Positions 31,243 through 42,212 of a stretch of DNA of 64,000 nt are shown piece after piece. The stretch covers positions 3,729,030-3,793,029 of the forward strand of contig AP017308.1 in the NCBI GenBank assembly GCA_001548435.1, written 5' to 3'. Origin of the DNA: Leptolyngbya sp. NIES-3755 (lineage in GTDB: Bacteria > Cyanobacteriota > Cyanobacteriia > Leptolyngbyales > Leptolyngbyaceae). The stretch's first letter is position 1, and each line of letters starts with the position of its first letter. The notes under the pieces are model-generated. The model worked only from the letters and a program-made list of their open reading frames with translations. It did no database searches and was not told where the DNA came from. The position numbers and the translations under genes were made by a program.

Positions 31243-31497
31243 ATGGATATTGTTTCTTTTAGCGAAGCAAGAAATAACCTGAAGGCTGTTTTAGATCGTG
31301 TGGTCGAAGATGCTGACTTTACAGTGATTACGCGACGGGACGCAGAGGATGTGGTTGTGATGTCGCTGGAGTTGTTTAATCGTTTGATGGAGACGGATTA
31401 TCTGCTTAAATCTCCAGCAAATGCGGCTCATTTAGAGCGATCGATTGCTCAATACAAGCAAGGAAAGGCGATCGAACGGAACCTAGTGGATGAGTAG
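31243..31497 (+). CDS. yefM: type II antitoxin, Phd/YefM family
   Basis: An 84-aa antitoxin. The N-terminal DNA-binding Phd/YefM fold reads VSFSEARNNLKAVLDRV, then DFTVITRRDAEDVVVMSLELFNRLMET. The C-terminal half is the charged, flexible part that wraps the toxin. It is expected to neutralise YoeB and repress its own promoter through the palindromes at 31211-31230. It overlaps the toxin gene by 8 bases. Confidence 0.93.
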   Translation: MDIVSFSEARNNLKAVLDRVVEDADFTVITRRDAEDVVVMSLELFNRLMETDYLLKSPANAAHLERSIAQYKQGKAIERNLVDE

Positions 31498-31756
31498 AAA
31501 GCTCGCTTGGACTGAAGAAGCCTGGAACGACTATGTCTATTGGCAAGGTCAAGATAAGAAGACGTTAAAGCGGATTAACAAACTGATTCAAGAGACTCTA
31601 CGATCGCCCCTGGAGGGAATCGGAAAGCCAGAAGCACTCAGCGGCAATTTGACTGGGTTCTGGTCGCGTCGTATCGATGAAACGAATCGGCTAGTTTACG
31701 CAGTTGACGATGACTATCTCACGATTATTGCTTGTCGATACCACTACTCCGATTGA
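31490..31756 (+). CDS. yoeB: YoeB-family mRNA interferase toxin
   Basis: An 88-aa RelE-fold ribosome-dependent endoribonuclease that cuts mRNA in the A site. Diagnostic parts are LAWTEEAWNDYVYWQ at the N-terminus, GIGKPEALSGNLTGFWSRRI (catalytic Glu and Arg) and the C-terminal ACRYHYSD with the conserved His-Tyr. Length and C-terminus are complete, so the toxin looks intact. Confidence 0.94.
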   Translation: MSRKLAWTEEAWNDYVYWQGQDKKTLKRINKLIQETLRSPLEGIGKPEALSGNLTGFWSRRIDETNRLVYAVDDDYLTIIACRYHYSD

Positions 31757-38339: not shown

Positions 38340-39941
38340 TCAACTAATCTCACCGGTTGCCAACATCTGAATCAATCGTGGCGTACCTGGATCGAATCCA
38401 GCAATATCCCAAGAAAGCGGATCTTGAGGATCAGCTAGCGAGATATTGTAGGGTGCAAGCGAGATGTAGATTGCTTTTGCATTCGGATTCACCTTACGGC
38501 GATAGATTGCTAGAGCTTGGCTTGGATGGGTTCGTCCTGCCCAGCTTTCACAGTCTGTCCAGAAGCAAAACAGATCGGCATTGAATCGCTGCTTAGTTGC
38601 CCATTCGTAAGCAACAGAAGCATCCGTTCCACCAAAGTTTTGATGAGTTGCTTTCGCGATCGCATCACTAAAACTATCTCGTGATGTGATCTTCAAATCG
38701 CGGAACTCATTCGCAAATCCACGAATTTTACAGTATCTCTCTGCTTTCGCGGTCGCTAATGCCATCACCGTCGCAATTTCACAGCAAGTTAAGCCAATTG
38801 AATCCACACTGTAGTAAGACATCGAACCGGAAACATCGATCGCATGTAAAAACACTTGCTCAGTCGGCGGTAGAACGTTGAATGAAAGTTCTAAGGCTTT
38901 CTCTAAGAGGGTGTTGATTCGCGAAACAGGCTTCCAAGTTTTTTGGCTGCGTCCGATTTGTCCACCGGATTGATAGGTTTTCAGAGCTTTGAGAACATCG
39001 ATCGGGTGAATTCGCCCTTTTCGCAGATGTTCTGCATTGTTCAACACAGAAGCAACTCGATCTAAGTTCTTTTTGTTGTCAGCATTCAACACACCCAATT
39101 GAGTCAACGATCCTAAGTTTCGGAGCATTGCACCGATCGGCATTTCTTCAAACAGAAGTTGCCATGATCGCTGATCCATATTGCCAACCGGAGCCACCAT
39201 TTCATGCGTTAGATGTCCTTGTTGAATCGCTTGATGAGTCTGAGTTGGATTGCGCTTGAGCCATTCGTACCACCAGATTTGAGCGAGAACATCAGAATCG
39301 ATTTTCTTCGGTAAGTTGTCCCAACCTTGAGCAACCCATTGAAATAATCGATCGTGATTTTCAGTTGGTGGCTTCACATGGAACAATCGCAACGCATCTC
39401 GATGTGAAAATCCTTGACGCTGTTGGTATTTCAACAGTTGATACGCCAAGCCTTTGACATCTTCGCGAGAGAGCCAAGCTTTTCCTGCTTCACGAACTAT
39501 CTTTCCAAATCCGCGCATTGACTTCGTATAGCTCATCCATTCGTAGAAATGGCTTCCAGTCCGAACAATGTGCGGAAAGATTTCGGTAAAGGCGCGTTTT
39601 GCTTCGGGAGTTTCGCCCATTGAAAGCAAGACTAAAGCGAGGATTGGAGCGCTGTTGTTAATCGATCGACCATCACTTGCATAGAGGATTTCTTCAGCGA
39701 CACGAGCGGGATTTTGTGCGATCGCATTCTGCACGACATCAATGAACTCACTCGTTAATTCATGCTTTCCCGCATAGTAAGTACTTTGAGCGGTTCCAAT
39801 CAATAAGCAGCGACGCAGAACAGTCCAGATATCCGCTTTGAACATCCAGCCGCTCGATCGACCTTGGATCATTTCGGCTTCTCGACCGGGAATTGGACGA
39901 GTTTGAGGCGTTTTATTCTTGGTGTAAAACTTGTATGACAT
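38340..39941 (-). CDS. rsr: TROVE-domain RNA-binding protein, bacterial Ro60 orthologue (Rsr)
   Basis: A 533-aa orthologue of the Ro60 autoantigen, a ring-shaped protein that binds Y RNAs on its outside and misfolded RNA ends in its hole, with roles in RNA decay and stress survival. The TROVE HEAT-like domain occupies about residues 20-350 (ADIWTVLRRCLLIGTAQSTYY, HPIDVLKALKTYQSG). The C-terminal von Willebrand A domain has a complete MIDAS set: DVSGSMS, the Thr in FGGTDAS and the Asp in FWTDCES. ATG 39941 has a very good ribosome site (GGAGG), so the longer open frame to 40004 is not used. It is the last gene of the rtcB-yrl-yrl-rsr locus. Confidence 0.93.
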   Translation of the reverse strand: MSYKFYTKNKTPQTRPIPGREAEMIQGRSSGWMFKADIWTVLRRCLLIGTAQSTYYAGKHELTSEFIDVVQNAIAQNPARVAEEILYASDGRSINNSAPILALVLLSMGETPEAKRAFTEIFPHIVRTGSHFYEWMSYTKSMRGFGKIVREAGKAWLSREDVKGLAYQLLKYQQRQGFSHRDALRLFHVKPPTENHDRLFQWVAQGWDNLPKKIDSDVLAQIWWYEWLKRNPTQTHQAIQQGHLTHEMVAPVGNMDQRSWQLLFEEMPIGAMLRNLGSLTQLGVLNADNKKNLDRVASVLNNAEHLRKGRIHPIDVLKALKTYQSGGQIGRSQKTWKPVSRINTLLEKALELSFNVLPPTEQVFLHAIDVSGSMSYYSVDSIGLTCCEIATVMALATAKAERYCKIRGFANEFRDLKITSRDSFSDAIAKATHQNFGGTDASVAYEWATKQRFNADLFCFWTDCESWAGRTHPSQALAIYRRKVNPNAKAIYISLAPYNISLADPQDPLSWDIAGFDPGTPRLIQMLATGEIS

Positions 39942-39978
39942 TGCAACCTCCAGCCCATCAAGGCAACATTCGGTTAAT

Positions 39979-40098
39979 TGGCAGAGTGGGATTTGCACCC
40001 ACATTTCCCGCTTAGAAGGCGATAACCCTCATTCTTCGTCCCAGAGGGCAAGGTTTGAACAAGGATGTTTAGGTGTCCTACTCTTAGACGATCTGCCA
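39979..40098 (-). ncRNA. tRNA-like Y RNA (Yrl) candidate, rsr-proximal copy
   Basis: A 120-nt tRNA-like unit. On the minus strand TGGCAGA (40092-40098) pairs perfectly with TCTGCCA (39979-39985) as a 7-bp acceptor-like stem. A D-like arm (GTC...GAC) follows the 5' strand. A canonical T arm (GTGGG, loop TGCAAAT, CCCAC; 39986-40002) precedes the 3' strand. The anticodon arm is replaced by about 65 nt containing the 32-nt core (40020-40051) shared with the other copy, with a CCC-NNN-GGG hairpin and GAGGGTTATCG. No CCA is encoded. It lies 38 bases upstream of rsr. Known Yrl RNAs are Ro-binding RNAs with tRNA-mimicking modules. Confidence 0.75.
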
Positions 40099-40106
40099 GT
40101 ATTTTT

Positions 40107-40234
40107 TGGTGTAGCGGAGCGGGATTTGCACCCGCATCTCCGGCGATTAAGGGGGAATTCGATTTCAACGATAACCCTCGATCTGCGTCCCGATGGGCAA
40201 TAAGTTGGCGCTCTACTGTTGAGCTACCCGCCAC
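40107..40234 (-). ncRNA. tRNA-like Y RNA (Yrl) candidate, rtcB-proximal copy
   Basis: A 128-nt tRNA-like unit. GTGGCGGG (40227-40234) pairs over 8 positions (two G-T) with TCCGCTAC (40111-40118), followed by an encoded ACCA (40107-40110). The D-like arm reads GCTCAACAGTAGAGC, as in true tRNAs, and the T arm (40119-40135) reads GCGGG, TGCAAAT, CCCGC. About 75 nt replace the anticodon arm and include the shared core (40169-40200; 26 of 32 bases identical to the other copy). It ends 8 bases before the second unit. The replacement is too short for a group I intron, and the setting between rtcB and rsr supports a Y RNA. Confidence 0.78.
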
Positions 40235-40242
40235 AAGAAAGA

Positions 40243-40320
40243 TGGGTGTGGGGTATGGGGTGTGGGGTGCGGGGTGGTAAACCGTTAATCCCGCACCTCG
40301 CACCTCGCACCTCGTACCCT
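40243..40320. repeat. heptanucleotide tandem repeats (STRR-like) forming an inverted pair
   Basis: GGGGTGT-type heptamers (GGGGTAT, GGGGTGT, GGGGTGC, GGGGTGG) run from 40243 to 40276, and CGCACCT heptamers (three copies plus CGTACCC) run from 40292 to 40319. The two blocks are partly complementary (GTGCGGG/CCCGCAC), so they can form a hairpin. Short tandemly repeated heptamers are known in cyanobacterial spacers. This one separates rtcB from the first Y-like RNA. Confidence 0.75.
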
Positions 40321-40330
40321 GTTTGCCGCT

Positions 40331-41512
40331 TCAACCTTTCACGCACAATACTTGTTTTAAGGTTGCGACCACTTCAACTAAGTCGGCTTGGTTTGCCATG
40401 ACTTGCTCGATCGGCTTATAAGCTCCCGGAATTTCATCAAGAACTCCTTCGTCTTTGCGACACTCAACGCCCTTGGTTTGTTCGATGAGATCATCCAACG
40501 TATAGGTTTTCTTCGCTGAGTTCCGAGACATTAAGCGACCTGCACCGTGAGAACAAGAACAATAGCTTTCGACATTGCCTTTTCCACGAACAATGTAGGA
40601 TTTTGCCCCCATGCTGCCAGGAATGATGCCCAAGTCTTCGGAACGTGCTCGAACGGCTCCTTTTCGAGTCACGAATACTTCTTCGTCAAAGTGCATCTCT
40701 TTTTCTGCATAGTTGTGATGGCAGTTCACTTCTAACAGTGGCTTCATCGGCTTTCCACCTGCAAGATGCTTCTCAACCACTCGCTTAAACCGAGACATCA
40801 TCACAACCCGATTGAATCGAGCATAGTCCTGTGCCCACTGAAGGTCATGCCAGTAGTTCTCGAACTCAGCCGTTCCTTGTACAAAGTGAGCTAAGTCAGG
40901 ATCAGGTAACTTCGTATCCGTCATCTTTGCCAGATTTTTTGCAGTGTCGATGTGACGTTGAGCCAGAATATTCCCGATGTGTCGAGAACCAGAATGGAGC
41001 ATTAACCAAACAGCATTGTCTTCATCCAAACAGAGTTCTAAGAAGTGGTTTCCACCTCCGAGTGAACCCATTTGGCGCAAGGCTTTGGTTTCGAGATCTT
41101 TCACACCCGGATGGAGTGCTTTGAAGTCTTGCCAACCTTGCCAGTTCGAGACTTGTCGATCGCTCTCCTTATTCTCGTTAAATCCAGTCGGAATCACTGC
41201 TTCAAGGTCTAATCGAATTTGCTTCAGTTTCCCTTCAAGTTGATCCGATTTGTAAGGCGTTTTGATTGCTGCCATTCCACACCCGATATCTACTCCGACG
41301 GCTGCCGGGATAATGGCATCTTTGGTGGCGATGACAGAACCGACGAGCGCTCCTTTTCCTAAATGCACATCAGGCATGAGAGACACGTGCTTGAACACAA
41401 ACGGCAGAGACGCGACATTCTTTGCCATTTTGGTTTCAGCGGTTCCGAGTTCGTGGTTCGCCCAAGATAAAACAGGTTTGTCAGTGGAAAGATTTAAGGG
41501 TTCGTAAGGCAT
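40331..41512 (-). CDS. rtcB: RNA-splicing ligase RtcB
   Basis: A GTP- and Mn-dependent ligase joining 2',3'-cyclic phosphate or 3'-phosphate ends to 5'-OH ends, used in RNA repair. The 393-aa protein has the metal-binding VGVDIGCGMAAIK, LGGGNHFLE, the His of MLHSGSRHIG, the NCHHNYAE cluster and the guanylylated His in SCSHGAGRLMSR. Length and all key residues are complete. It is the first gene of the locus and has its own upstream region bounded by a terminator at 41663. In other bacteria rtcB is often linked to rsr and Y-like RNA genes. Confidence 0.95.
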   Translation of the reverse strand: MPYEPLNLSTDKPVLSWANHELGTAETKMAKNVASLPFVFKHVSLMPDVHLGKGALVGSVIATKDAIIPAAVGVDIGCGMAAIKTPYKSDQLEGKLKQIRLDLEAVIPTGFNENKESDRQVSNWQGWQDFKALHPGVKDLETKALRQMGSLGGGNHFLELCLDEDNAVWLMLHSGSRHIGNILAQRHIDTAKNLAKMTDTKLPDPDLAHFVQGTAEFENYWHDLQWAQDYARFNRVVMMSRFKRVVEKHLAGGKPMKPLLEVNCHHNYAEKEMHFDEEVFVTRKGAVRARSEDLGIIPGSMGAKSYIVRGKGNVESYCSCSHGAGRLMSRNSAKKTYTLDDLIEQTKGVECRKDEGVLDEIPGAYKPIEQVMANQADLVEVVATLKQVLCVKG

Positions 41513-41719: not shown

Positions 41720-42106
41720 TTAGACGATCTGACGACGCTCAGCTTCAAGGAGTGCCAAAAGTGCGTTATCGCCTTTCTGACGAGCGCTTTCAATCCGACG
41801 CTGCAAATTCCGCTGTAAGTTCTCGCGATGCGTTGCGGTCAGGTTTGCGGCTTGTCTTGGCTTGCTCGTGGTCGGAGTCAATGTCGGCTTGCCATCGGGA
41901 TAGCCCACCCAGTAGCGGTTGCCACGATAAATCAATTCACGCGGCTGTTGTTGAACCGTCGATCGAACAGGGCGATTCGGATCGAGTTGGTAATGGTTGC
42001 CACGATAGGTTAGAGTGATCGGCTCACGGAATCGAGAAAAGCGATCGTCGCGTGTGCCTTGAGTTGGGTCGTAGTCGTATTCGACACCACGGTAAATCAG
42101 TCTCAT
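41720..42106 (-). CDS. DUF4278 protein
   Basis: A 128-aa basic protein of a cyanobacterial family of unknown function. It has three copies of the short LIYRGxxY motif (MRLIYRGVEYDYDP, LTYRGNHYQLDP, LIYRGNRYWVG) and a helical C-terminus (ENLQRNLQRRIESARQKGDNALLALLEAERRQ). A TATAAT -10 box on the minus strand at 42213-42218, with TTGGGA 18 bases upstream, implies a leader of about 100 bases. Confidence 0.85.
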   Translation of the reverse strand: MRLIYRGVEYDYDPTQGTRDDRFSRFREPITLTYRGNHYQLDPNRPVRSTVQQQPRELIYRGNRYWVGYPDGKPTLTPTTSKPRQAANLTATHRENLQRNLQRRIESARQKGDNALLALLEAERRQIV

Positions 42107-42212
42107 AGTCGCCTCGGAAAATCAAAATGAAGTGAGATAATGAGGCGCGTTCCTTCAGGAAATCTCCTTACTTCCGTCCCTGGCACATACCAAGGATGAA
42201 CGTTCATATCTG

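Follow-up and report, generated by a model that had tools for sequence, protein, structure and literature searches.

Tandem tRNA-shaped RNAs upstream of the Ro60 orthologue gene of Leptolyngbya sp. NIES-3755 and other cyanobacteria as candidate Y RNAs

The Y RNAs that associate with Ro60 proteins, which act in RNA quality control, have been described in several forms. In vertebrates, as presented in PMC4726728 and PMC4030889, the lower stem combines a short helix, a bulged C, a bulge on the opposite strand and the element UUAUC; there is no tRNA body, and the free ends lie at the stem. Bacterial YrlA RNAs start and end at the Ro stem and run from one Ro strand through a T arm, a closed acceptor and a D arm to the other Ro strand, a circular permutation between YrlA and tRNA being already known (PMC11472068). 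In Salmonella, Rsr, Y-type RNAs and the RNA ligase RtcB are encoded together in the rsr-yrlBA-rtcBA operon. Here, we analyse a stretch of 64,000 nucleotides from the cyanobacterium Leptolyngbya sp. NIES-3755 (contig AP017308.1, positions 3,729,030 to 3,793,029; hereafter, the window), in which two tandem tRNA-like RNAs, RNA1 and RNA2, lie between rtcB and rsr. Comparison with relatives makes it likely that the adjacent Rsr has its Y RNAs in RNA1 and RNA2, which would be tRNAs carrying a Ro-binding stem as an extra arm in the anticodon region. A preliminary description had presented the region as a Ro60/Yrl/RtcB locus; the parts that stand are the association of rsr with Y-type RNAs of its own, as judged from the linkage to rsr and the Y core, and a link to RtcB, whereas the layout of the RNAs is not YrlA-like. 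The features of the locus are as follows.

40331-41512, minus strand: rtcB, RNA ligase, 393 amino acids (Pfam RtcB PF01139, 1.1e-124)
40112-40233, minus strand: RNA1, type D unit (Rfam tRNA, 35.6 bits; covariation in 30 relatives)
39979-40098, minus strand: RNA2, type U unit (scanner match; covariation in 58 relatives; model R1, E 1.6e-22)
40022-40071, minus strand: insert of RNA2 (covariation alignment of the 58 relatives and coordinate mapping)
39942-39966, minus strand: rsr leader with a Y-like hairpin immediately 5' of GGAGG (hairpin pattern, found in 103 of 111 rsr leaders)
38340-39941, minus strand: rsr, Ro60 orthologue, 533 amino acids, TROVE ring and vWA domain (vWA_Ro60 1.1e-39, TROVE 1.3e-19)

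The list of open reading frames (ORFs) together with profile and Rfam searches places rtcB, RNA1, RNA2 and rsr in this order and, as the preliminary description had it, in the same direction; all lie on the minus strand of the window. The product of rtcB covers positions 2-426 of the 426 positions of PF01139, which assigns it to the RtcB family, and matches solved RtcB chains in a profile search of structures (1e-26 to 1.4e-29). Rsr combines the TROVE ring with a vWA domain containing the MIDAS motif, as expected of a Ro60/Rsr protein, and its profile matches the Rsr of Deinococcus (2nvo, 1.2e-85) and Ro60 of Xenopus (1yvp, 9.5e-85). The complete MIDAS announced in the preliminary description is also recovered: residues D369, S371, S373, T439 and D463, which we take to be those of the motif, do not vary among the 11 cyanobacterial Rsr sequences that were aligned. 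Furthermore, Rsr H188 aligns with H187 of Xenopus Ro60, a residue named as essential for Y RNA contact in PMC4030889.

Each unit consists of a tRNA body, with an acceptor of 7-8 bp, a D arm and a T arm, whose anticodon region accommodates an inserted stem of the Ro-binding type; a short loop closes the free ends of this stem. In type U units, the D arm is followed by 2-3 nt of the anticodon stem, an insert of about 50 nt, the remainder of the anticodon stem, a 7-nt loop, the V loop, the T arm and the acceptor. The type U insert comprises the strand AUCCUUGUUC, the hairpin UU-GCCY-loop-RGGC-CG, the strand GAAUGAGGG and UUAU. Accordingly built, RNA2 has its anticodon stem split by the Y-type insert and retains the anticodon loop CUUCUAA; within the insert, the helix AUCCUUGUUC/GAAUGAGGGU flanks the hairpin GCCC/GGG(A), with a C at the bulged-C position and UUAU at the 3' end. 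In type D units, represented by RNA1, the Y hairpin comes before the Ro-type helix, the partner strand of this helix (CCCUUAAUC in RNA1) lies 3' of UUAUC, and there is no clear anticodon loop. The match of RNA1 to the Rfam tRNA family (RF00005, cut-off 29 bits) contains a long insertion in the anticodon region. The covariance search named as a refuting check in the preliminary description thus gives tRNA for RNA1, a result that fits our interpretation and does not refute it. ARAGORN calls neither RNA1 nor RNA2. An encoded CACCA directly follows RNA1 on its 3' side (40111-40107), and CCA is not encoded after RNA2.

To describe the units more broadly, 110 loci were collected, 30 from genomes of the class and 80 named ones, with 102 distinct rsr DNA sequences. 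A scanner requiring the Y core together with D and T arms and a matching acceptor returned 268 matches, 243 of them distinct, and the 235 with a score of at least 33 are the units used below. Covariation was assessed in 58 type U units, left from 69 diverse ones after the exclusion of 11 that were long, truncated or Leu-like, and in 30 of 34 diverse type D units; both sets include window-identical copies from locus L002. Among the type U units, 96.2% of the cells are paired versus 85.0% after shuffling, and 25 of 35 pairs have changed on both sides, with at least one such pair in all seven helices. Support is less full for type D, in which 94.4% of the cells are paired (89.0% when shuffled) and 14 of 34 pairs, in five of the seven helices, have changed on both sides. 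None of 500 shuffles reached the observed paired cells or covariation score for either type. The split of the anticodon stem was evaluated with the two pairs that bridge the insert, 27-43 and 28-42, and that played no part in the choice of the split: among the 101 of 163 eligible units with a local 3-bp hairpin (of the others, 48 had two of the three hairpin pairs, 12 had one and two had none), the bridging pairs are formed in 196 of 202 cells, compared to a mean of 157.6 and a maximum of 167 in 1000 shuffles. Taking the best of many possible splits of a 5-bp anticodon stem gave 153 of 233, a count that was not relied on, the split and the V-loop length having been chosen to fit.

The tRNA elbow appears to be retained as well. 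D-loop GG accompanies T-loop TTC in 189 units, 43 units have no GG together with TGC, three lack GG and have TTC, and none has GG with TGC; the two features are thus lost together, which points to a maintained elbow. The bodies themselves vary and are Gly-, Pro-, Lys-, Met-, Leu- or Ser-like. An extra pair, -1/73, which yields an 8-bp acceptor, is present in 191 of the 235 units versus 5 of 43 ordinary tRNAs of this genome, and CCA is encoded 3' of 114 units.

The units are tightly linked to rsr. In 107 of the 110 loci, they are found upstream of rsr and on its strand, and none lies elsewhere in those loci; there are one to ten per locus, with a single unit in 16. The loci without a good unit are L020, in which model R1 places two at ~1.4-1.7 kb upstream, L089, with a low-score match only, and L107, for which 556 bases of upstream sequence are available. 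In a survey of 291 genomes, 61 had an Rsr match and 54 were counted as carrying a long rsr, after weak matches (G062, G177 and G224) and fragments (G244, with a stop, G010, G116 and G267) had been set aside; the other 237 serve for comparison. Uncorrected for the relatedness of genomes, full-length R1 matches at E 1e-12 or better occur in 51 of the 54 long-rsr genomes versus 0 of the 237 others, and G025, G040 and G225, the remaining long-rsr genomes, have only full-length matches of 55-58 bits, located beside rsr. The raw R1 tally, 291 of 291 genomes, carries no meaning and was discarded, since ordinary tRNAs also give matches, of 71 nt and about 50-55 bits. In Picosynechococcus sp. PCC 7002, rsr and three units reside on plasmid pAQ7. 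A bank of ten units, with Ser-like and other tRNA-like bodies, precedes rsr in Prochloron didemni (L115). A block, GCCTRRGGGAAG...CCGCCTATTCT, is conserved upstream of the first unit in L007 (1115), L008 (1115, minus strand), L010 (1074) and L021 (983), and is perhaps a promoter or operator.

The 37 bases between RNA2 and rsr contain a hairpin, UU-GCCY-loop-GGGC-YG, that is the same as the hairpin within the units. In its general form (UU, 4 bp, loop, 4 bp, YG), it is found in 103 of 111 rsr leaders (78 of 83 distinct ones), mostly with the Shine-Dalgarno sequence right after it, compared to 41 of 391 mechanically defined leaders of other ORFs. When all four pairs and a Shine-Dalgarno sequence are required, the counts are 92 of 111 (67 of 83 distinct) versus 8 of 391. 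This repetition of the Y hairpin before the ribosome-binding site in most rsr leaders suggests autoregulation, whereby Rsr would control its own translation. A GCCC/GGGC-CG hairpin also precedes the rsr Shine-Dalgarno sequence of Streptomyces phage Forrest (L120, 1371-1446); a hairpin of this type is not evident in the leaders of Myrna, Sixama, Bosea and Sparky.

The link to rtcB holds at the level of gene content: rtcB is present in 49 of 54 long-rsr genomes versus 81 of 237 others. By contrast, the ligase-RNA-Ro arrangement emphasized in the preliminary description is not general, since rtcB adjoins rsr in only 9 of 111 loci, all of them close relatives of the window. Compared to the Salmonella operon, the RNAs here are 5' of rsr, rtcB is usually unlinked and, whereas the enterobacterial rsr-yrl-rtcBA operon includes RtcA and RtcR, neither protein (PF01137 and PF06956, respectively) has a match in the whole genome, which extends the absence previously reported for the window. 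In Chlorogloeopsis fritschii PCC 9212, a TROVE gene is described as strongly upregulated with erythromycin (PMC6424891), and TROVE (log2 4.5) and RtcB (log2 3.5) genes are listed among the top induced genes in coculture (PMC11423583). In the related strain PCC 6912 (L090), no rtcB lies inside the 5 kb flanks.

Between rtcB and RNA1 are 96 bases with a GC-rich inverted repeat (40240-40328), the DNA fold of which is not significant (z -1.15); relatives carry different repeats at the same position. As regards the single transcript suggested in the preliminary description, which would give ligase mRNA, both RNAs and Ro mRNA, neither a sigma-70-like promoter nor a terminator-like site was found on the RNA strand of the interval from rtcB to the RNAs. 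Farther away, a glutamine riboswitch (RF01739, 55.8 bits, 42144-42204, minus strand) lies upstream of a DUF4278 gene (41720-42106), and two adjoining small ORFs at 31243-31756 on the plus strand resemble, by eye, a YefM/YoeB-type toxin-antitoxin pair. Outside the window, the same genome contains a dense tRNA array (G000:C1:2495212-2498549; loci L145, L152, L157 and L158), with 17-19 ARAGORN calls per ~3 kb, some with low tRNA scores; it is a possible source of spare tRNA bodies.

The units share with vertebrate Y RNAs the lower stem outlined above, and the C after the hairpin is present in 58 of 58 aligned type U rows and UUAUC in all of them, bulged C and UUAUC being named as Y RNA features in PMC4030889 and PMC4726728. 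The pattern GRGNCG-N8-12-GKUUAUC occurs in the rsr loci of phages Myrna (twice), Sixama, Forrest and Sparky (twice) and of PCC 7002 (twice), compared to 0.055 occurrences expected by shuffling; a loosened core pattern is found in 206 of the 235 units, and three exact core patterns searched for in viral contigs gave no match. With YrlA, the units have in common the position beside rsr, the D, T and acceptor-type arms and the Ro-type core, including the C after GGGN and UUAUC; the phage copies of YrlA share an anticodon-type hairpin too. However, the cyanobacterial units have both of their ends at the acceptor, in many cases with CCA, their Ro stem is closed, and their internal order is D, Ro stem, T, whereas the YrlA-type matches in phages run from UUAUC through the T arm and the closed acceptor to the D arm. 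Scores against YrlA (RF02553, gathering score 69) are 31.0 and 22.4 bits for PCC 7002 units and also remain below 69 for the rsr loci of Sixama (46.8), a Bosea plasmid (36.7), Sparky (36.6) and Forrest (24.2). In PCC 7002, the YrlA match (31.0 bits, model positions 1-114) straddles a pair of adjacent units, taking in the 3' half of one and the 5' half of the unit that follows, so that the parts, judged by this alignment, are the same and the register is rotated. From ordinary tRNAs, with which they share the whole body plan, the elbow, the V loop and often CCA, the units differ by the interrupted anticodon stem, the usual extra acceptor pair and an anticodon that is not conserved. Overall, with a Ro-type core and a location beside rsr, the units probably belong with bacterial Y RNAs in the broad sense, and the best reading is that they work like these RNAs while falling outside YrlA by both score and order. 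The layout is not described in the literature searched, coverage of which was partial, and an earlier notice of cyanobacterial Y RNAs is possible.

Other interpretations deserve consideration. The insert might be a new type of intron, cut out by some nuclease and sealed by RtcB to give working tRNAs. The covariation of the anticodon stem across the insert and the co-occurrence of rtcB with rsr are in line with this, as are the anticodon loops of the 101 units in which the local hairpin is complete, a set selected on pairing alone; these loops retain U33 in 99 cases and a purine at position 37 in 97. Removal of the insert also lets ARAGORN call a tRNA in 152 of 153 units, but this test is weak, given that an excision shifted by 5 nt still yields 126 of 153 calls and is too permissive a control. 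A functional intron-containing tRNA should have a conserved anticodon matching the identity of its body, whereas positions 34-36 vary among the 101 units, nucleotide 34 is T in 23, G in 17 and C in 2 of the 42 units of one same-stem group, and one set of acceptor sequences recurs in units that have many different anticodons. Because the anticodons drift although U33 is kept, decoding in translation appears unlikely; moreover, type D units lack a clear loop, ordinary tRNA genes, among them Arg(UCU), Phe(GAA) and Gly(UCC), are present in the genome, and the insert bears the Y core and tracks rsr. Thus, we regard introns as highly improbable. Less probable again is a YrlA register with its ordinary layout, in which the working RNA would extend from the 3' half of one unit into the next 5' half, exactly as the PCC 7002 match does. 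The match falls well short of the gathering score, the acceptors of 125 neighbouring unit pairs form on average 5.87 of 7 Watson-Crick pairs within units but 4.27 across them, the helices within units covary, CCA is encoded at unit ends, and loci with a single unit cannot form a junction RNA. Least credible is the degeneration of tRNA genes struck by a mobile hairpin element; one insert in different bodies and the common repeats around unit genes are compatible with it, but strong covariation, co-change of the elbow, the strict tie to rsr and the absence from the 237 genomes without long rsr contradict it.

A less improbable, though still doubtful, alternative is that the main task of the units, in partnership with Rsr and RtcB, is to decoy or sense anticodon nucleases and not to gate or tether. 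U33 is kept while anticodons vary, and wherever a locus has at least two hairpin-bearing units (28 loci), all of its loops differ. Among the phage Y RNAs, leaving aside two without a T arm found and that of Bosea, 5 of 5 have a 3-bp hairpin and a 7-nt loop with U33 and R37, each alone reached in 3-17% of shuffles. In addition, PMC7790460 puts forward the possibility that an anticodon nuclease is inhibited by YrlA, and the induction of the TROVE gene in PMC6424891 is by a translation inhibitor. Conversely, type D units are without the loop, and Salmonella YrlA is reported in PMC7790460 as uncut. An extended version, which we rate as no less speculative, holds that cyanobacteria, and others too, to judge from the five phage Y RNAs, maintain collections of tRNA mimics, held by Ro60 and differing in their intact anticodon loops, as both bait and gauge for anticodon nucleases: cut or used-up mimics would free Rsr to bind the hairpin of its own mRNA, and RtcB would reseal cut tRNAs. 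If so, Y RNAs would be of tRNA origin and YrlA a circularly permuted offshoot.

Several observations weigh against the assignment of the units as Y RNAs of Rsr. No unit reaches the gathering score of any Rfam Y RNA family, and Rfam lists none for 39900-40340 up to E 10; RNA2 scores 18.0 bits against RF00005, under the cut-off. Single-sequence folding is not significant for RNA1 (z -0.37) or RNA2 (z -1.85), and the case therefore rests on the comparison of relatives, in which the aligned rows are themselves related and the counts are not independent events. Some pairs are poorly kept: in type D, the Y hairpin is not closed by its last pair in 14 of 30 rows, and three long-helix pairs fail in 7 to 11 rows; in type U, pair 46-81 fails in 17 of 58 rows. 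Finally, 8 of 111 rsr leaders have no hairpin by the criteria used, and 7.5% of shuffled leaders have one.

Taking the units as the Y RNAs of Rsr, a plausible sequence of events can be outlined. The units, encoded upstream of rsr with tRNA-type ends, half of them with an encoded CCA, would be transcribed and processed at these ends. Rsr would then bind the inserted stem, making its contacts at the bulged-C hairpin and at GAGGG-UUAUC, as suggested by the shared Y core and the conserved RNA-contact histidine. The tRNA-shaped body could gate the Rsr ring or tether a tRNA- or RNA-binding partner, by analogy with PNPase, the tethered partner in Deinococcus. The bulky arm and the 8-bp acceptor would keep the units out of translation. 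Spare Rsr might lower its own translation by binding to the Y-like hairpin next to the ribosome-binding site of rsr, such that the supply of Y RNA would set the supply of Rsr. RtcB, usually encoded elsewhere and co-occurring with rsr, would serve the same stress, in which RNAs are cut.

With the parts of YrlA in the order of a tRNA and with open acceptor ends, the cyanobacterial units offer a plausible tRNA ancestor for Y RNAs. The role of the tRNA-like domain, long unclear, becomes testable in tractable cyanobacteria such as PCC 7002, and the rsr mRNA gains a possible feedback site.

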